Shown here: in pieces, positions 21,460 to 36,463 of the stretch
How positions within the stretch are numbered: the first letter of the stretch is position 1
Layout: each line of letters begins with the position of its first letter
Source of the DNA: Myxococcota bacterium
GTDB lineage: Bacteria; Myxococcota_C; UBA6777
DNA: 36,977 bases
Direction: 5' to 3'
Assembly: GCA_023150835.1 (NCBI GenBank)
Contig: JAKLKB010000066.1
Span: 23,114 to 60,090, forward strand
Translations under genes and position numbers: made by a program
Notes under the pieces: model-generated
What the model saw: the letters and a program-made list of their open reading frames with translations, nothing else
What the model was told of the DNA's origin: nothing
Database searches by the model: none

Positions 21460-21598
21460 AAAGAACTAATCGCTTTGTAAAAATTTGAGCGAGAGGGCTG
21501 ACCTCATCTGTCCAACCTCTGTGCTAAAGGTTTCTTGGCAAAGATCGTGTGGGACTAGATCGCAAAAACTCTTTAAAATAAGGAAGGAGGACGGTGTG

Positions 21599-22270
21599 GT
21601 GACAGGAGAAAAAAGCCAAAAAAGCATCGTGGAGATGGTTTGGTCTGCGCATGGAACCGAAATACCTGCCGATCACGGTTATCCTGTGTATGGGGCTGTC
21701 TCTCGTCATGTTCCTTGGGTTCACGAAAACAAGGAAGCGAGCATTCTGCCTCTTACGGGCCAGCCGATCGGAAACAGGCTGTTGAGCCTCTCGAAAGACG
21801 CTCGTTTTCGTGTGCGTGTGCCCTACGAAGGGGTCGCTGAGATGTACCGATTGTCAGGAAAGCGTCTGGACTTGAACGGCTACTCTGTTCGTTTGGGGGT
21901 TCCTGAACTCTCGCTTTTGCGGGCTTCTCGTTCTCTTTACAGCCGCCTTGTGGTCATTAAAGGCTACACGGAAGAAACCGCTTTTTTGGAGGCCATCCAA
22001 CGGCAACTGACGGATATGGGGGTTCTTGAGGCGTCGCCAAGCATTCCGCTACGAACACCTTTCGACGTGGAAAGATTGCGGCAAAAAGGCTTCGAACCTT
22101 CGTTGACCTGCCGCCGAACGTTGCGCGTGAAAAACAAAGAGATCGTTGGTTTTGCTGTGCGTGTAGACAATCTTTCGGACGGCTCTTCCATACTCTTACA
22201 AGCCGCAGGGTTGGGCGGAAAGCGCCTTTTTGGTTGTGGTTGTTTTGTTCCGTTCGTGGAGGGGGCATGA
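21599..22270 (+). CDS. cas6: CRISPR repeat endoribonuclease Cas6, MYXAN type (Cmx6)
   Basis: A 223-residue Cas6 that should cut the repeat RNA 3' of its hairpin to release crRNAs. The start is set to the GTG at 21599 because AAGGAGG lies 8 nt before it; GTG at 21596 is also possible. The open frame to 21485 is not family-like. The N-terminus EIPADHGYPVYGAVSRHVPWVHE is the hallmark of the I-MYXAN Cas6 family. The central VPELSLLRASRSLYSRLVVIKGYTE and the C-terminal glycine-rich GLGGKRLFGCGCFVPF complete the two ferredoxin-like folds. The general base is not certain; H in ADHGY is a candidate. The stop overlaps the cas3 start (ATGA). Confidence 0.93.
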   Translation: MTGEKSQKSIVEMVWSAHGTEIPADHGYPVYGAVSRHVPWVHENKEASILPLTGQPIGNRLLSLSKDARFRVRVPYEGVAEMYRLSGKRLDLNGYSVRLGVPELSLLRASRSLYSRLVVIKGYTEETAFLEAIQRQLTDMGVLEASPSIPLRTPFDVERLRQKGFEPSLTCRRTLRVKNKEIVGFAVRVDNLSDGSSILLQAAGLGGKRLFGCGCFVPFVEGA

Positions 22271-26212: not shown

Positions 26213-27172
26213 ATGACGAAACATCTCTACGGGCTGATCTCCACATCGTTTGGAGTTGCAGCAAACAATCGCGGCGAAAACGAAGGGCACATCTCTACGC
26301 TACAAAAGATCTTGTGGCATCGCGACGACGTTCACACAACAGTTTCTGCGGAAGCTATTCGTTTTGCCGTACGCGATATATGCCAAAAAAAAGGCTTGGT
26401 GCTGAACCGAACGTGGTTCGAACACCAGAACCAGTGGGCTGATCCGAAGTTTGAGCAAGCGGGAACATTTTGGGACGATGACGTCTTGGGCTTCATGTCC
26501 GCAGAAGCTGCAAAGCAAGACGGCGGGGAGGCTGATGTAGCCGAAAAGCCGAAGCCACAAGCCTCTACAGGCAAACCAAAAAACAAAAAAGCAAAACCTC
26601 GGGGAACCACCTTGGTGCGGCGTTCTCGTTTGGAGATCTCACGAGCTGTTTCCTTGTCTCCTTTTCGTGGGGAAGTTAGCTTTAACTCCGCCAGCATCGG
26701 TGCTACACCATCCGCCAGCAGCACAGGGAAAGATCCCGTTCCTTACGGAACAGAAATCCATGCGACGCGGTATCAATACGCGTTTGCCCTCACCCCAGAA
26801 GAACTCGCCAAAAAAGAACGCGCTTTGGATGTTGTGGACATCTTGATGCAATTGTCCCATGTTGCAGGAAATCAATCACGCTTTCTGTACGACTTCTCCC
26901 CCGACTCCGTGATCTTCCGATGGACCGACGATTTTGCACCGCGAATGCTTTATGCTTTTGAACAGCCCGAGGGTACCGAGCTTTGCGTCCCTTCCATCCT
27001 ACAGCGCGTTCAATGCGGCGATATCGAACCAAAAGAATTGGTGATCGGTGGCGCGATCGCATCCGCTCCAGACGGCCACATTTTGCAAAAGGCGGGCGCA
27101 ACCGTTGTTCTTGGGGTTCGGCAAGCTGCAAACGAGATCATCGCACGCATCAAAAAAGATCTCGGTCTGTGA
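26213..27172 (+). CDS. cas7: Cascade backbone Cas7, DevR (Cst2/DevR) type
   Basis: 319 residues from the ATG at 26213, with AGGAG about 6 nt upstream. The N-terminus LYGLISTSFGVAANNRGENEGHISTLQKI, with HTTVSAEAIRFAVRD and later EIHATRYQYAFAL and FSPDSVIFRWTDDFAPRMLYAF, is typical of Cas7 of the Cst2/DevR family. Several copies coat the crRNA. Residues about 101-130 are an Asp/Lys/Pro-rich low-complexity loop (KPKPQASTGKPKNKKAKPRG) where a thumb-like loop would lie. In Myxococcus xanthus the homologue DevR also affects fruiting-body development and dev transcription. Whether that holds here is unknown. Confidence 0.94.
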   Translation: MTKHLYGLISTSFGVAANNRGENEGHISTLQKILWHRDDVHTTVSAEAIRFAVRDICQKKGLVLNRTWFEHQNQWADPKFEQAGTFWDDDVLGFMSAEAAKQDGGEADVAEKPKPQASTGKPKNKKAKPRGTTLVRRSRLEISRAVSLSPFRGEVSFNSASIGATPSASSTGKDPVPYGTEIHATRYQYAFALTPEELAKKERALDVVDILMQLSHVAGNQSRFLYDFSPDSVIFRWTDDFAPRMLYAFEQPEGTELCVPSILQRVQCGDIEPKELVIGGAIASAPDGHILQKAGATVVLGVRQAANEIIARIKKDLGL

Positions 27173-27194
27173 GCCGTTTGGTCAGGAGATAGCC

Positions 27195-27857
27195 GTGAGT
27201 TCTTCTTTTCTTTCTCTGTTTGTTTCCGTCCCGATCGCGTCTTTTCGTGTTGCACAGGCTCGCGAGTATTGGGAAACCTATCCCTGCCCGCCGCCTTCCA
27301 CGGTGTACGGTATGTTGCTCTCTCTCGTTGGAGAAGAAGATCGTTTTGCCCATCAAGGCGCTGAGATCGCCACCGCGTTGCTCTTGCCCGAACCATCGCT
27401 CTCTCGGATTCTTCGAAAAACATGGCGCGTCAAGAAACTTGATGAGGGCCTTGGTCGGGGAAACAACGTGCGCCCCGATTTTCAAGAGCTGTTGACGGGG
27501 GTTCGCTTGGGGGTGTTTCTGCGATCAGGCCCAAACGAAAGCACGCAACATCCGACTCTTTACGAACGTGTGCAATCGACCTTGGCTGCGCCCTCACAGA
27601 TTCGACGGTTTGGTGGCTTGAGTCTTGGCGAAAGTACTCATCTCGTCGACGAACTCCGACTTTTACGCTCCAACGACGCACAGCAAGGAGCGTTGTGGCT
27701 ATCCCCCTCGAATATCGGCTCTTTTAGTTTACCGATCTGGCCAAATCACGTCGGCTTGGAAGGAACTCGTTGGCAACAGTTCCGCTTGGAAGAAGCGCAA
27801 AAGAACCAACCCCTCGATCCAAGCCATGTTTGGGTCACGATCCGATCTGCTGAGTGA
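27195..27857 (+). CDS. cas5: Cascade subunit Cas5, DevS type
   Basis: 220 residues from a GTG at 27195, preceded by CAGGAG. The longer frame to 27048 overlaps cas7 and is not family-like. The N-terminus LFVSVPIASFRVAQAREYWETYPCPPPSTVYGMLLSLVGEE is diagnostic of DevS/Cas5, followed by RKTWRVKK, RPDFQELLTGVRLGV, and the glycine-rich FGGLSLGESTHLVDEL. Cas5 caps the 5' handle of the crRNA in Cascade. It lies 22 nt after cas7. Two CRISPR-like repeats follow its stop. Confidence 0.95.
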   Translation: MSSSFLSLFVSVPIASFRVAQAREYWETYPCPPPSTVYGMLLSLVGEEDRFAHQGAEIATALLLPEPSLSRILRKTWRVKKLDEGLGRGNNVRPDFQELLTGVRLGVFLRSGPNESTQHPTLYERVQSTLAAPSQIRRFGGLSLGESTHLVDELRLLRSNDAQQGALWLSPSNIGSFSLPIWPNHVGLEGTRWQQFRLEEAQKNQPLDPSHVWVTIRSAE

Positions 27858-27889: not shown

Positions 27890-27925
27890 CTTTCGACTTC
27901 TCAGATGCCGCAAGGCGTTCATTTC
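27890..27925 (+). repeat. degenerate CRISPR-like repeat 1 (psi-R1)
   Basis: Aligned over 36 nt to the array repeat, it matches at about 24 positions. The hairpin block GATGCCGCAAGGCGTT (27904-27919) matches 15/16. The one change turns the loop GTAA into GCAA, both GNRA tetraloops, so the structure is kept. The left part is poorly conserved, and the last six bases (CATTTC) differ from the array handle (GAGCAC). It lies 32 nt after the cas5 stop, in the same orientation as the array. Confidence 0.85.
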
Positions 27926-27926
27926 A

Positions 27927-27971
27927 GGAGAACACACCAGAGCGCTACACAACACACAGCGCGAGTTCTCC
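27927..27971. other. nested palindrome inside the psi-spacer
   Basis: GGAGAAC (27927-27933) pairs with GTTCTCC (27965-27971), and inside it GCGCT (27942-27946) pairs with AGCGC (27958-27962) around an A/C-only 11-nt loop. This accounts for most of the 57 nt between the two degenerate repeats. Such a structured insert is not expected of a simple spacer. It may shape a small RNA or bind a protein. Confidence 0.6.
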
Positions 27972-27982
27972 GCGTCTGATCC

Positions 27983-28018
27983 CCACTATTCTCTCGGATG
28001 CCGTAAGGCGTTCATCGA
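27983..28018 (+). repeat. degenerate CRISPR-like repeat 2 (psi-R2)
   Basis: Matches the array repeat at about 29 of 36 positions. The 25 nt from 27988 to 28012 are identical and include the complete hairpin GATGCCGTAAGGCGTT. The last six bases (CATCGA) again differ from GAGCAC, sharing CAT with psi-R1. It lies 65 nt before the cas4-cas1 ATG. The two degenerate repeats are 93 nt apart (start to start), against about 72 in the array. Confidence 0.9.
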
Positions 28019-28028
28019 AACGATCGCG

Positions 28029-28065
28029 GCGCACTTTTTTGTTTGTGCGCTTGTGGCGTTTTTTT
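28029..28065 (+). terminator. hairpin plus T-run before cas4-cas1
   Basis: GCGCAC (28029-28034) and GTGCGC (28045-28050) form a 6-bp stem with a T-rich 10-nt loop. Eight bases later there is a run of seven T (28059-28065). The gap between stem and T-run is longer than in a standard intrinsic terminator, so it may be a weak terminator or attenuator between the interference and adaptation genes. Confidence 0.35.
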
Positions 28066-28082
28066 GACGTTGGAGGCTTGGT

Positions 28083-29741
28083 ATGGAAGAGGATCTGAAA
28101 TCCCCAGAAGAAGGGCTTTTGCGCGTGATGGCACTACACGCGTTGGTTTACTGCGAACGGTTGTTTTTCCTCGAAGAAGTAGAAGAGTTGCGCGTAGCAG
28201 ATTCCGCCGTTTTTGCTGGTCGTACTCTTCACGAAGAACTGCGTCGTACAGAAGAAGAAGACGGCGAGTGGACGAGCCTTTCCCTCTCTAGCGAGTCGCT
28301 TGGACTCGTTGGAAAAATGGATGCTGTTCGCAAACGAGATGGCCAGTGGATCCCTTACGAGCACAAAAAAGGGCGGTCTATGCGCGGCGATCGAAAACCA
28401 CAGGCTTGGCCGTCAGATGCTTTGCAGGTGGCTGCGTACGCGATGCTTTTGGAAGAGCATTACGGTTGTGTTATCGAAGAAGGGCGCATTCGTTATCATG
28501 CCGAGAAGATCACCGTGCGCGTTTTGATCGACTCGTCTTTGCGTGAGGCTGTGCGAAGTACTGTGTTGAGGGCGCGAGCGCTGCGTGCTTCTTTGGAAAG
28601 GCCGCCCATCACGACCGAAGAGAACCGTTGCTTGCGTTGTTCCCTCGCCCCTGTTTGCTTGCCAGAAGAAGAACGGCATCAATCCGATCCTACATGGGCA
28701 ACTGTTCGCTTGTTCCCACCCCACCAAGAAAGAAAAACACTTCACATCGTTTCTTATCAAGCGCAGATCGGGAGGGCTGGTGATACGTTGAAGATTCGGC
28801 AAGAAGGCGAAGAACAAACGTACCCCATCCATGAAGTCGGAACCTTGGTTCTTTATGGCACACCTCAAATCACCACACAGGCTTTGCATTCGTGTTTGGC
28901 GCATGATATCGCTGTCCATTGGGTGACACGAGCAGGGCGCTATCTTGGAGGAATTTCTGCGGGGGTTGGAGCTGTGCAGCGCAAATTACGCCACTACGAG
29001 GCTTTTGCCGACGCCTCGCGACGGCTTGGGCTTTGCCGACGGTTGATATCCGCAAAGATCGAAAATTCTTTACGGTTCTTGTTGCGCGCCACACGCGGCG
29101 AGCAAGACCGTCGCGCCTCTGTGGAAGATTTCATCTCTGAAATGCGTCGATCTCTCAAAAGTGTCACGCACGCCGAAGACGAAAATGCAATCCGTGGTTT
29201 TGAGGGGAATGCTGCACGAGCCTACTTTGCAGCCTTGCCTTTTTTGATTAGTTCGGAGGTCGATCGGTCCATGCTCCCAAAGGGGCGATCAAAACGCCCT
29301 CCAAAAGACCGTTTCAATGCGTTGCTCAGTTTTGGTTACGCTTTGGTTTACCAACGCGTTTTGCAGGCGATCTTGGTTGTTGGTTTGGAGCCTGCGCTCG
29401 GCTTCTTCCACACACCACGCTCGGCAGCGCACCCGTTGGCTCTGGATCTGATGGAGCTATTTCGTTGTGTCTTGTGGGATATGCCTCTTGTGGCTTCTGT
29501 GAACCGACGCACTTGGGGACCTGATGAAGACTTTTCTATTGTTGGTGAGCAGGTCTGGCTTTCGGAGCACGGAAGGAAAAAGGCTATCCAGATCTTTGAA
29601 CGGCGATTGGAAGAAACTTGGAACCACCCCGCAGTGGATTATTCGCTCTCTTATGCGCGCATGGTTGAATTAGAAGTTCGCTTGCTTGAAAAGGAATGGA
29701 CTGGATCTCCGGGGCTTTTTGCACAATTTCGGATCCGTTAG
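28083..29741 (+). CDS. cas4-cas1: Cas4-Cas1 fusion (spacer acquisition)
   Basis: 552 residues from the ATG at 28083 (GGAGG upstream). Residues 1-200 are Cas4: C24 in LVYCERLFFLEE, D80 in LVGKMDAV, E93-x-K95 in PYEHKKGRS, and the Fe-S cysteines C183, C186 and C192 in NRCLRCSLAPVC. These form the RecB-type nuclease that trims prespacers and selects PAM. Residues from about 215 are Cas1: VLYGTPQITTQALHSCLAHDIAVHW, E374 in IRGFEGNAARAYF, H443 in FFHTPRSAAHP, and D455/E458 in LALDLMELFR. Cas1 integrates spacers with Cas2. The fused form is typical of the I-MYXAN and a few other subtypes. Confidence 0.97.
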   Translation: MEEDLKSPEEGLLRVMALHALVYCERLFFLEEVEELRVADSAVFAGRTLHEELRRTEEEDGEWTSLSLSSESLGLVGKMDAVRKRDGQWIPYEHKKGRSMRGDRKPQAWPSDALQVAAYAMLLEEHYGCVIEEGRIRYHAEKITVRVLIDSSLREAVRSTVLRARALRASLERPPITTEENRCLRCSLAPVCLPEEERHQSDPTWATVRLFPPHQERKTLHIVSYQAQIGRAGDTLKIRQEGEEQTYPIHEVGTLVLYGTPQITTQALHSCLAHDIAVHWVTRAGRYLGGISAGVGAVQRKLRHYEAFADASRRLGLCRRLISAKIENSLRFLLRATRGEQDRRASVEDFISEMRRSLKSVTHAEDENAIRGFEGNAARAYFAALPFLISSEVDRSMLPKGRSKRPPKDRFNALLSFGYALVYQRVLQAILVVGLEPALGFFHTPRSAAHPLALDLMELFRCVLWDMPLVASVNRRTWGPDEDFSIVGEQVWLSEHGRKKAIQIFERRLEETWNHPAVDYSLSYARMVELEVRLLEKEWTGSPGLFAQFRIR

Positions 29742-30332: not shown

Positions 30333-33300
30333 CTGCCATTCTCTCGGATGCCGTAAGGCGTTGAGCACTTTTGAGTTAAAATCAATTAGGTTCTCCCATT
30401 CTTCCTGCCATTCTCTCGGATGCCGTAAGGCGTTGAGCACTCCGTGCTGTCCAGCGCCCTCGACCGCGCTATATCCTGCCATTCTCTCGGATGCCGTAAG
30501 GCGTTGAGCACGTTCCGATCTCGATCATCGCGAAGCCTCCGTGCTGTCTGCCATTCTCTCGGATGCCGTAAGGCGTTGAGCACAATCATCCGATTGCATC
30601 GCATCCATCGCATCCACCCTGCCATTCTCTCGGATGCCGTAAGGCGTTGAGCACGACTGGTGCGACGATGAGCCACGATCTGCCGAGATCTGCCATTCTC
30701 TCGGATGCCGTAAGGCGTTGAGCACAAGTAGAGGATGAACCTGCGCCCCCTGCACCGTCCCTGCCATTCTCTCGGATGCCGTAAGGCGTTGAGCACCTTA
30801 ACCCCAACGGGCAGGAGCTTCAAGATTGGGCCTGCCATTCTCTCGGATGCCGTAAGGCGTTGAGCACATGAAGCTCGATTTGACGAGCGTCACCGCGCTT
30901 CCGCCTGCCATTCTCTCGGATGCCGTAAGGCGTTGAGCACCGTAAGAACTTTTCCTTCTGCGCCCACCTTCACGGTGCTGCCATTCTCTCGGATGCCGTA
31001 AGGCGTTGAGCACACCTCGCTGGCGACGTGATGCTCTATCACGTTGGCGGTCTGCCATTCTCTCGGATGCCGTAAGGCGTTGAGCACCGGTCAAGCGCGG
31101 TTGCAAGGCTCATTTCAAGAACCTGCCATTCTCTCGGATGCCGTAAGGCGTTGAGCACTCGATCTGGAGTTCGTCGCCCACATTCATTTGGATCTGCCAT
31201 TCTCTCGGATGCCGTAAGGCGTTGAGCACTCTTTCTGTGGTGCAGACGTTCGCGCTAGAGCAAACCTGCCATTCTCTCGGATGCCGTAAGGCGTTGAGCA
31301 CCGGCACGTTTTTTGTTCTTGTGCGGGTTGGCGCACTGCCATTCTCTCGGATGCCGTAAGGCGTTGAGCACGAATCAGCGTGGCCTTCACCTACAAGCCT
31401 GTCGTGAGCCTGCCATTCTCTCGGATGCCGTAAGGCGTTGAGCACCAGGATCTGCCCATCGAAGAGCGCGTCAAAGTCGTGCGTCTGCCATTCTCTCGGA
31501 TGCCGTAAGGCGTTGAGCACAGGAGTGTTTGGTAGCCCGCCGCCATCTGCCCCTGCACCTGCCATTCTCTCGGATGCCGTAAGGCGTTGAGCACGGAGGA
31601 AATGCTTCAAAACACCCAAGTTGATCCCGCGCTGCCATTCTCTCGGATGCCGTAAGGCGTTGAGCACCAAGCGCTAATGCGTGGATCGAAAAGCAATACA
31701 TAATCTGCCATTCTCTCGGATGCCGTAAGGCGTTGAGCACATGTACAAGATGCCCTTTCCGCCCTTGCATCTAGTCCTGCCATTCTCTCGGATGCCGTAA
31801 GGCGTTGAGCACCGAGGATCGACGCGACAAGTGCGCTGTTTGTGCCGAGCTGCCATTCTCTCGGATGCCGTAAGGCGTTGAGCACCGATCAAGTAGATCG
31901 TTTTCGGTGCGATCCATCACCTGCCATTCTCTCGGATGCCGTAAGGCGTTGAGCACGTGGAAATCTTCCTACAATCCCTTGGATGGATAACCTGCCATTC
32001 TCTCGGATGCCGTAAGGCGTTGAGCACTTCCACCAAACCCCTGCGCTTTGGCCGAGGTTTAGGTGTCTGCCATTCTCTCGGATGCCGTAAGGCGTTGAGC
32101 ACCGTACCAAGCGCGGAACATCTCGGACATCGCCGATCCTGCCATTCTCTCGGATGCCGTAAGGCGTTGAGCACATCAAAAATCGGGTCAATGGGATCTT
32201 TAAGTACCCCGTCTGCCATTCTCTCGGATGCCGTAAGGCGTTGAGCACCTGATCCCACACCACTTGAGGCCCGCCCGTCGTTTTCTGCCATTCTCTCGGA
32301 TGCCGTAAGGCGTTGAGCACTTATCGTCGAAAGACTCTTGAAAGGACTTGATCATTCTGCCATTCTCTCGGATGCCGTAAGGCGTTGAGCACAGAGAGAT
32401 AAGAGCGAAGAAGAGACAGACGACACAGACTGCCATTCTCTCGGATGCCGTAAGGCGTTGAGCACCTATCTAGTTGCTCTTTGTTGGCTCTTGCGTACTT
32501 TTCCTGCCATTCTCTCGGATGCCGTAAGGCGTTGAGCACCTCTTTAAGGAAGCCGAGTTGATTGCGCAATCGTTCCTGCCATTCTCTCGGATGCCGTAAG
32601 GCGTTGAGCACGATATCGAGCAGATCGTGCGAAAGTTTGGGCGCGGCGAAGGTTCTGCCATTCTCTCGGATGCCGTAAGGCGTTGAGCACCCGAATTCTT
32701 TTTGCTGTAGATATGCGCGCAGGAGCTGCCATTCTCTCGGATGCCGTAAGGCGTTGAGCACCCGTGGGCAAGATGTGGCTGATCTCGGCGGTGGCCTGCC
32801 ATTCTCTCGGATGCCGTAAGGCGTTGAGCACGGGTATTTCTCTAACAGTTTCGTCCACCATTCTTGCGGCTGCCATTCTCTCGGATGCCGTAAGGCGTTG
32901 AGCACCGTTGAGATTCCCCCGTGTAGGAAAAAGCCCATTCCTGCCATTCTCTCGGATGCCGTAAGGCGTTGAGCACGGTCGATCACTTTATCATCCGAAT
33001 CGACCAGCCAAATTCTGCCATTCTCTCGGATGCCGTAAGGCGTTGAGCACAGCAAAAAACAGTCGGCCTTGCCTTTAGACGATAACTGCCATTCTCTCGG
33101 ATGCCGTAAGGCGTTGAGCACAAGAAGCAAGTGAATATGATTCGGATGTGACTGATTTGCTGCCATTCTCTCGGATGCCGTAAGGCGTTGAGCACCACGA
33201 GCAGCGGCTAGTGCATATCTGGGCGGGGAGACTGCCATTCTCTCGGATGCCGTAAGGCGTTGAGCACACAAAGGATCACAAACGCAATACTAACCTCAAA

Positions 33301-36300
33301 AGAGACCGTCCTAATCTGCCATTCTCTCGGATGCCGTAAGGCGTTGAGCACGAAGAGATCCGCGAAGTCTTGCGCGCTCTTGATCCTGCCATTCTCTCGG
33401 ATGCCGTAAGGCGTTGAGCACGACGCGGGCAAGCGACAAAGCGCCCCTCCTCAAACCCTGCCATTCTCTCGGATGCCGTAAGGCGTTGAGCACTCTCGGC
33501 GGTGCTTCGACCAGTTCGGACGGTTCAATCTGCCATTCTCTCGGATGCCGTAAGGCGTTGAGCACTTGAGGGCTTTGGGATCGCATGGAATTAAGGAAGG
33601 ACTGCCATTCTCTCGGATGCCGTAAGGCGTTGAGCACTGGACTTTTCAACGAACACTTATTCGCCTGTTGCGGGACTGCCATTCTCTCGGATGCCGTAAG
33701 GCGTTGAGCACCCACCCAACACTCCCAAGTCTCCCCCCCGTGGGGCGCTGCCATTCTCTCGGATGCCGTAAGGCGTTGAGCACAAGAGAGGGAAAAGAAA
33801 AAAACAAAGCGCGATCCCACTGCCATTCTCTCGGATGCCGTAAGGCGTTGAGCACGGGGCGCGGTTGTTTTCTGCGCCCTCTTTGCCGCGCCTGCCATTC
33901 TCTCGGATGCCGTAAGGCGTTGAGCACTACCCTCCCACTTCTACGCAGCGATCCGCTGCGTCAAAGTCTGCCATTCTCTCGGATGCCGTAAGGCGTTGAG
34001 CACGCAAGCAAATCTTGTGTAAGTTCGGCTTGAGGACTGACTGCCATTCTCTCGGATGCCGTAAGGCGTTGAGCACAGCCTGCCTTGCCTGCAAAAAGGC
34101 ATGCGGAAGTGTTCTGCCATTCTCTCGGATGCCGTAAGGCGTTGAGCACACGCAAATCACCTCGATAGCAAAAGCCCCCTACGCGGCTGCCATTCTCTCG
34201 GATGCCGTAAGGCGTTGAGCACATCTCTATCATCCGAATCTATGCTATTCCTTAGACCTGCCATTCTCTCGGATGCCGTAAGGCGTTGAGCACATGGTGG
34301 ATATGGCGGCTCGTATGCCGGGTCAAGTGGGTCTGCCATTCTCTCGGATGCCGTAAGGCGTTGAGCACAGAATGGAGCACCGATATTGCCCAGAAAGCTA
34401 TCCTGCCATTCTCTCGGATGCCGTAAGGCGTTGAGCACCCGGTAAAATCTCGCATGCTTGGCAGACTGGGAACCTGCCATTCTCTCGGATGCCGTAAGGC
34501 GTTGAGCACTACCAAGAAAAGTCTGCGTAAGCGCTAGGTGAGGATCTGCCATTCTCTCGGATGCCGTAAGGCGTTGAGCACTCCGCGTTGGGGCGCGTGG
34601 ACAGGTGCAATTGGTCCTGCCATTCTCTCGGATGCCGTAAGGCGTTGAGCACTATTTTGGTTGTTTGGGCTGTCTTTTTGCGGTCATCCTGCCATTCTCT
34701 CGGATGCCGTAAGGCGTTGAGCACCTATGCGCTACCGATATGTTGTAGGCACGGTGCATCCTGCCATTCTCTCGGATGCCGTAAGGCGTTGAGCACAAAC
34801 TCCCCCAACAACGCTTGAGCTTTTGACTGATCTGCCATTCTCTCGGATGCCGTAAGGCGTTGAGCACTTTGTATCACCCACCGAGGCGAGGTGACAGACA
34901 TTTCTGCCATTCTCTCGGATGCCGTAAGGCGTTGAGCACACGATTCGCCACTGCCCATCGAGGCGATCCCGAACAAGCTGCCATTCTCTCGGATGCCGTA
35001 AGGCGTTGAGCACTACTGGTGGAATTGGGTACATTTGAACATGATCGGCCCCTGCCATTCTCTCGGATGCCGTAAGGCGTTGAGCACACACAGGTCGCGG
35101 CAGAGTGCTTTCGCGTGTTGCCTGCCATTCTCTCGGATGCCGTAAGGCGTTGAGCACCTCAAGAGTAGCGCTAAGGACAGCACAGCGAAACCTGCCATTC
35201 TCTCGGATGCCGTAAGGCGTTGAGCACTACCAAGAAAAGTCTGCGTAAGCAAAGTCTGCGTAAGCCTGCCATTCTCTCGGATGCCGTAAGGCGTTGAGCA
35301 CTAAGCAAAGGGCTACAAGGCAAGCTGATCCCGCGTGTCTGCCATTCTCTCGGATGCCGTAAGGCGTTGAGCACGGGCTGGATCTGTGGGATGCCTTCTC
35401 TTCGCGGGCTGCCATTCTCTCGGATGCCGTAAGGCGTTGAGCACAAGGCGCGTTTGTTTGTTCCCTTCTCCATTGTTTCAACCTGCCATTCTCTCGGATG
35501 CCGTAAGGCGTTGAGCACGATAATTTCGCCGCGTTCTGCTTGCTTTGTTCGTCGTCTGCCATTCTCTCGGATGCCGTAAGGCGTTGAGCACCTCCAGCTC
35601 TGTGTAGTCAAAAGGGTTGGCGTACCTGCCATTCTCTCGGATGCCGTAAGGCGTTGAGCACCTCGGTGCGTGGTACAATATGCCCCTTTTTTCCCTCGCT
35701 GCCATTCTCTCGGATGCCGTAAGGCGTTGAGCACACGGTGTTCCCCAAATTCCCGTACATTCTGGGGAGAGTCTGCCATTCTCTCGGATGCCGTAAGGCG
35801 TTGAGCACGGATACCCGAAGCGGTGATCGTTGTCGAAGTGATCCTGCCATTCTCTCGGATGCCGTAAGGCGTTGAGCACTAAATCCCTTCGTCTTGAAAG
35901 GCGATCTCCAACACCTGCCATTCTCTCGGATGCCGTAAGGCGTTGAGCACGAGAAGTCTTTCTAGCCCTACTCTGGAGCGTCGCCTGCCATTCTCTCGGA
36001 TGCCGTAAGGCGTTGAGCACTCGGACGGGCGGGCTTTTACAACAACACGCAATTTGCTGCCATTCTCTCGGATGCCGTAAGGCGTTGAGCACAGCACAGC
36101 ACGGGCGGCGATCTAGAAAAACTTGTTTTGCTGCAAAACTGCCATTCTCTCGGATGCCGTAAGGCGTTGAGCACGATAATTTCGCCGCGTTCTGCTTGCT
36201 TTGTTCGTCGTGCTGCCATTCTCTCGGATGCCGTAAGGCGTTGAGCACAATCGTCATGCTCCCAAGGTTTTCAGGATAGGCGTCCTGCCATTCTCTCGGA

Positions 36301-36463
36301 TGCCGTAAGGCGTTGAGCACTATTCGACTTGCGCAAAAATTACATTGATCATCGTCTGCCATTCTCTCGGATGCCGTAAGGCGTTGAGCACGTTCAGGTA
36401 AAACCACCGAGCCGAGAGGTGAAGATTCTGCCATTCTCTCGGATGCCGTAAGGCGTTGAGCAC
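30333..36463 (+). CRISPR. CRISPR array, 85 repeats of 36 nt and 84 spacers
   Basis: I count 85 repeats by position, from 30333 to 36428. All look identical; the unit begins CTGCCATTCTCTCG and ends GATGCCGTAAGGCGTT plus GAGCAC. Spacers are 34-43 nt, mostly 35-38. The plus-strand RNA can fold ATGCC/GGCGT with one G.U pair around a GUAA loop. Minus-strand RNA would have a C-A mismatch there. Cutting after GGCG leaves the 8-nt handle UUGAGCAC, which resembles the AUUGAAAC type of other type I systems. Repeats are open in all frames on minus, which creates many false open reading frames. Two spacer pairs are related (72/81 and 58/68). Confidence 0.99.

Follow-up and report, generated by a model that had tools for sequence, protein, structure and literature searches.

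Two degenerate copies of a CRISPR repeat lie inside a cas operon, between cas5 and cas4-cas1. Do they frame a crRNA-like guide, or do they serve the operon in another way? The window (the whole 36,977-nt stretch analysed) carries a type I-MYXAN operon, as identified by profile matches, with the gene order regulator-like gene, cas6 (Cmx6), cas3, cas8 (Cmx1), cas7 (DevR), cas5 (DevS), psi unit, cas4-cas1, cas2-like ORF (named by position only) and array.

Two degenerate repeats with intact hairpins in the cas operon

The psi unit lies in the 225-nt gap between the cas5 stop (27857) and the cas4-cas1 ATG (28083). The relevant features are the following.

21485-22270, + strand: cas6 (Cmx6), the presumed hairpin reader (TIGR02807, E 7e-53)
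27048-27857, + strand: cas5 (DevS/Cmx5) ORF (TIGR02586, E 1.5e-43)
27890-27925, + strand: psi1, degenerate repeat (24/36), hairpin 27904-27919, handle UUCAUUUC
27926-27982, + strand: psi-spacer, 57 nt, self-folding (27927-27933 pairs with 27965-27971, 27942-27946 with 27958-27962)
27983-28018, + strand: psi2, degenerate repeat (29/36), hairpin 27997-28012, handle UUCAUCGA
28072-28076, + strand: GGAGG, Shine-Dalgarno-like, 5' of the cas4-cas1 ATG; pyrimidines 5' of psi2 are possible pairing partners
28083-29741, + strand: cas4-cas1 fusion, the gene behind the leader (TIGR03983, E 1.9e-144)
30333-36463, + strand: CRISPR array, 85 identical 36-nt repeats, CTGCCATTCTCTCGGATGCCGTAAGGCGTTGAGCAC

psi1 and psi2 start at a distance of 93 nt from each other and leave 57 nt between them; both have the orientation of the array. 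In Markov shuffles of 30.3 kb (n=200) the best match to the array repeat was usually 20-22/36; one shuffle reached 24/36, another 25/36 and none of the 200 reached 29/36. A scan of the whole 7.56 Mb genome with a core pattern (21 nt, up to two mismatches) found the 85 array copies, psi1 and psi2 only. We also used a covariance model built from 40 elements of other loci, with the window left out. It scored 29.6 bits on psi2 (E 6e-6) and 29.1 bits on psi1 (E 9e-6), and the next-best match in 30 kb reached 9.9 bits, 19 bits lower; the array repeats match the model too, so these scores show kinship to repeats and not, by themselves, membership of a class. In an Rfam search the array repeat alone was matched, below threshold.

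Folding gave an intact hairpin in each copy (GAUGCC-GCAA/GUAA-GGCGUU, about -7.5 kcal/mol). In psi1 the mismatches fall on 1 of 16 hairpin positions versus 11 of 20 elsewhere, in psi2 on 0/16 versus 7/20. The hypergeometric probabilities of this sparing (about 0.002 for psi1 and 0.009 for psi2) are biased, as the hits were found through the hairpin. The handle is kept at 4/8 positions in each copy, and the altered handle start UUCAU is common to both. Repeat matching, the genome scan and folding thus bear out what the initial annotation had read from this DNA, namely two ectopic repeats in array orientation with kept hairpins, and the shared change at the start of their handles, to which it had drawn attention, is real.

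The psi unit has eroded handles and no PAM-flanked seed match beyond background

The initial annotation had further proposed that the unit gives rise to a crRNA-like regulatory RNA. CreA, CreR and CrePA act by such a guide (PMC8501985, PMC9458426, PMC12737573). In common with CreA of CreTA (PMC8501985, PMC9458426) and with CrePA (PMC12737573), the psi unit has two degenerate repeats around a spacer-like stretch, in a cas locus and on the cas strand. Unlike in them, the 8-nt handle is not kept, a 10-nt seed target beside a PAM was not found and no toxin gene was noticed in the 225-nt gap; the psi-spacer is also self-folded and longer than the array spacers (57 nt versus 34-48 nt).

The psi-spacer fold had an MFE of -15.2 (z -2.3). 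Seed nucleotides 1-10 were unpaired at 0.28, versus a mean of 0.48 for array crRNAs, so that the seed of the would-be guide is buried by self-pairing. With an ATG PAM, inferred from the guide units of relatives, the best seed match in the local locus was 6/10 (register shifts of -1, 0 and +1), equal to that of shuffled guides. A strict-seed search with both psi units gave no match in the genome (93% complete), which is also the outcome of the search for a PAM-flanked partial match in the host that had been suggested for the psi-spacer. Guide matches of both psi units to the window were likewise absent, and no target was found in the promoter of the cas operon or of cas6 (window and local locus search). 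CreA pairs guide nucleotides 1-5 and 7-11 with a PAM-flanked promoter target, and the psi unit has no such match. A sigma-70 scan of the operon was not clearly above shuffles.

The handle and seed tests of guide-based CreA, CreR and CrePA fail for the psi unit. Of the earlier interpretation, the ectopic repeats in the cas operon, their constrained hairpins and their recurrence in related gaps (see below) are supported, but the guide role of psi1/psi2 is not.

Guide-type units occur in related loci

We retrieved 78 related loci with the Cas4-Cas1 protein, from cyanobacteria, planctomycetes, myxobacteria and others. A position matrix was made from the relatives' array repeats and scanned over all non-array DNA. 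The decoy scan, run on the reversed sequence of all loci, gave 4 hits with a best score of 16.7; psi1 scored 26.2 and psi2 27.2. Isolated repeats with a score of 15 or more numbered 75. Among the intergenic ectopic repeats of relatives, 68/73 were on the sense strand of the operon, and the ectopic repeats clustered in three places: 5' of cas6, 5' of cas7 and in the gap between cas5 and cas4-cas1.

Four loci (L043, L060, L068 and L076) contain Cre-type units. Their guides match nearby targets over 10-17 nt, all four ATG-flanked, and their psiR1 handles keep 7-8 of 8 positions. That I-MYXAN loci can carry Cre-type units is thus supported. Over all ectopic repeats, ATG stood next to seed matches seven times versus 2.0 expected, with ATG itself read from these hits.

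The units of L043 (3928-4340) and L060 (3322-3759) lie between cas3 and cas8 and use an ATG PAM. Their guides have seed matches of 16 nt and 10 nt, respectively, and the targets are located before an ORF of 76-77 aa, whose proteins in the two loci are related (37% identity). Because the target precedes a small ORF conserved between both loci, these units look like candidate CrePA-type modules in cyanobacterial I-MYXAN. L068 (3270-3480) has a CreR-like unit with the intact handle UUGAGCAC upstream of cas6; its guide target, with an ATG PAM, is about 160 nt downstream and before cas6, as for CreR. In L076 (1567-1664, minus strand) the guide of a divergent repeat pair upstream of cas6 agrees at 18/20 positions with a site close by, again with an ATG PAM.

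Handle-less repeat hairpins recur in cas mRNA leaders

A leader hairpin 5' of cas4-cas1 was found in 19/45 loci with cas5 just upstream (window counted in), and the other 26/45 comparable loci have none. In the same gap of related I-MYXAN loci, whose alignment had been proposed as a check, such elements thus recur. As read from the leaders, the distance from the end of the element to the AUG is 18-47 nt for cas4-cas1 (in most cyanobacteria), 20-45 nt for cas7 and roughly 20-65 nt for cas6. A set of 42 elements retains CCTNNGATGCC and the hairpin, and the last six handle positions match at 2.4/6. The leader-class elements keep a 5' CCTNN box and the hairpin but not the handle, and no local target was found for them. 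The stems contain compensatory changes (4 double-change cells versus 0.9 in shuffled data), and their covariation score was 0.196 versus 0.154, reached in 0/500 shuffles. The statistics on these elements as a whole are somewhat inflated, since the search matrix contains the conserved core and many of the cyanobacterial loci are related.

Judged by sequence, degenerate repeats in sense-strand cas mRNA leaders before cas4-cas1, cas6 or cas7 are thus a widespread putative class apart from the guide units. psi1 and psi2 have its traits: the hairpin and a near-CCTNN box are kept (TCT versus CCT in the class, one letter different), the handle is lost, the strand is sense, and psi2 stands before cas4-cas1. 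psi2 appears to resemble the leader-hairpin class, given its place close to that of the class and the erosion of both handles to 4/8. Its end is 64 nt from the cas4-cas1 ATG, near the position of the leader hairpin in related loci and beyond the usual 18-47 nt.

In the loci whose Cas4-Cas1 is closest (L014, L015 and L016) the gap is short and holds no hairpin, and a second I-MYXAN Cas5 was not found in four other genomes of the window's phylum. A myxobacterial match (L132) was discarded, as it turned out to be a small array.

Arrays were also seen near this position; L071 and L088 have small true arrays in the gap, so relics do occur here. L088 (8413-8595) has three repeats before cas4-cas1, the last with a lost handle and a possible antirepeat, and may show a terminal array repeat turning into a leader hairpin. 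In L074 (8907-10001) a 15-repeat array between cas5 and cas4-cas1 runs straight into the cas4-cas1 frame, whose start is apparently missing. The myxobacterial I-MYXAN locus L140 (7150-7293) carries a very small degenerate array directly after cas5, with no cas4-cas1 detected nearby.

Antirepeats tend to precede the cas4-cas1 start codon in related loci

In 22 cas4-cas1 leaders, the duplexes formed by repeat and antirepeat had a mean z of -1.6 versus dinucleotide shuffles (Stouffer z -7.5), and 12/22 leaders had a duplex with p<=0.05. The control, 198 array repeats versus their own spacers, gave a mean z of 0.09 and 5%. Leaders of cas6 (Stouffer z -1.5) and cas7 (0.2) had little or no antirepeat signal. 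An earlier test over all ectopic repeats, which used ungapped Watson-Crick runs, had given a weak excess; the later test allowed G-U pairs and bulges and was split by gene, the split being chosen after the first result had been seen. One antirepeat is common to many Nostocales leaders, so that the independent cases are fewer than 12; a count by eye gives about seven lineages. In most cases the antirepeat helix stops 2-6 nt short of the cas4-cas1 AUG. Pairing partners co-change at several columns (for example A-U, U-A and G-C at column 14), with the caveat that the duplex finder is built to prefer complementary letters.

Candidate counterparts in the window are the following.

27972-27979, + strand: candidate antirepeat of psi1, GCGUCUGA, pairs with UCAGAUGC (27901-27908); duplex p 0.11
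28020-28065, + strand: terminator-like GC-rich hairpin (GGCGCAC 28028 / GUGCGC 28045), then T7 at 28059-28065, from folding
28047-28065, + strand: candidate antirepeat of psi2, GCGCUUGUGGCGUUUUUUU; duplex -14.3 kcal/mol, p 0.14

Each of the two window duplexes, taken alone, is not significant. Pairing of GCGUCUGA with UCAGAUGC excludes the psi1 hairpin, and the fold of 27890-27990 had -26.6 kcal/mol (z -2.9). The candidate antirepeat of psi2 overlaps the 3' arm of the hairpin-T7 structure. Terminator-like hits in the region numbered 21 versus 15.9 in shuffles, which is near background.

A leader element that may be read by Cas6

We see an even chance that psi1 and psi2 are a Cas6-recognised leader element controlling cas4-cas1 and not the ends of a crRNA-like guide. 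The Cas6 (Cmx6) of the same operon would bind the psi hairpins as it does array repeats and probably cut at the 3' base of the stem. Such a cut would part the interference cistrons from the adaptation cistron (cas4-cas1-cas2), whose expression would come to depend on Cas6 that is free of pre-crRNA.

The leader element is possibly a repeat/antirepeat switch. In related loci an antirepeat further downstream, directly next to the start codon, would compete with the hairpin. In the off state the helix of repeat and antirepeat would close the ribosome site; in the on state, binding or cleavage by Cas6 would remove the repeat arm and the site would open. After a cut, the cas4-cas1 mRNA would retain the antirepeat, and the repeat arm would go with the upstream fragment. 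Since the repeat arm would be removed by cutting, an ON switch seems more natural than repression. Cas6 binding and cutting, the direction of control and a window leader that works like the cyanobacterial ones are what we infer here. That I-MYXAN systems in general place a Cas6-sensing RNA switch before the adaptation gene, with free Cas6 opening an antirepeat-closed cas4-cas1 start, is a tentative proposal that we hold to be somewhat improbable. If it were true, spacer acquisition would rise with an excess of Cas6 over pre-crRNA and fall when array repeats suffice. If Cas6 reads the leader class at all, crRNA processing and spacer acquisition would be coupled at the RNA level, and the uptake of new memories could in this simple way be kept in step with processing capacity.

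The unit might instead be a relic, a decayed one-spacer mini-array that was left between cas5 and cas4-cas1 and now has no function. Its repeat-spacer-repeat layout and its orientation fit this explanation, as do the small or degenerate arrays that occupy the same gap in L071, L074, L088 and L047 and the nearest relatives, which are without a psi unit. However, the mismatches spare the hairpin in both copies, the 57-nt spacer exceeds the array range, and elements of this type have, in many lineages, undergone compensatory changes that preserve the hairpin; we regard a relic as rather unlikely. A guide of the CreA/CreR type, in which Cas6 would cut both hairpins and the RNA with 5' UUCAUUUC would direct Cascade to the promoter of the cas operon or of a toxin, can be called quite unlikely. 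The half-eroded handles differ from those of the psiR1 copies with targets (4/8 versus 7-8/8), the PAM-flanked seed match is no better than shuffles locally and absent from the genome, the seed is self-paired and no toxin ORF was noticed in the gap, although the spacer is flanked by two degenerate repeats and relatives of the same subtype have such units.

Transcription could also be the step controlled. The duplex of psi2 and its antirepeat would then be an antiterminator opposed to the hairpin-T7 structure at 28020-28065, and Cas6 on psi2 would favour termination before cas4-cas1. The antirepeat does overlap the 3' arm and the T run, and both alternatives are stable in the fold; but terminator-like hits are little more frequent than in shuffles, the pairing by itself is not significant and the short cyanobacterial leaders are too small for a terminator. 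We think that attenuation is very unlikely.

Comparison with known regulatory RNAs

A Cas6-recognised leader element would have parallels outside CRISPR regulation. Autogenous leaders mimic the normal target of an RNA-binding protein, as in ribosomal-protein leaders and in the cutting by RNase III of its own mRNA. The psi unit would share with them an enzyme-substrate mimic in an mRNA leader beside a start codon; it would differ in being read by a CRISPR processing enzyme and in using a CRISPR repeat, together with an antirepeat, as the mimic. Csy4/Cas6 sites serve as operon insulators in synthetic biology. These also place a Cas6-type hairpin between cistrons, but the psi unit is natural, lies within a cas operon and is not engineered. 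Among the papers searched, which took in few subscription titles, none was found to describe Cas6 sites with antirepeats in leaders of cas mRNAs.

When degenerate repeats occur outside the array in a cas locus, they are usually interpreted as guide RNAs (CreA, CreR). CreR of type I and V-A systems (PMC12737573) shares with the psi unit an ectopic repeat in the cas operon that is thought to feed back on cas expression. Unlike CreR, the psi unit has no guide match to the cas6 promoter and sits in the cas4-cas1 leader, and its proposed reader is Cas6 on mRNA, not Cascade on DNA. Within this one subtype both kinds occur, guide units with kept handles and PAM-flanked targets and handle-less leader hairpins without a target, and the handle and antirepeat features may help to discriminate the classes in other loci.

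The initial annotation had also linked the unit to Dev autoregulation in Myxococcus, where the mechanism of Dev feedback has been described as unknown (PMC8616872). This link found no support: the eight dev loci (L124-L131) have no hairpin in the gap between cas5 and cas4-cas1, and the psi finding therefore does not explain Dev feedback. Elsewhere in the genome of the window, contigs C149, C183 and C138 carry further cas1-like genes, and several CRISPR systems may coexist.
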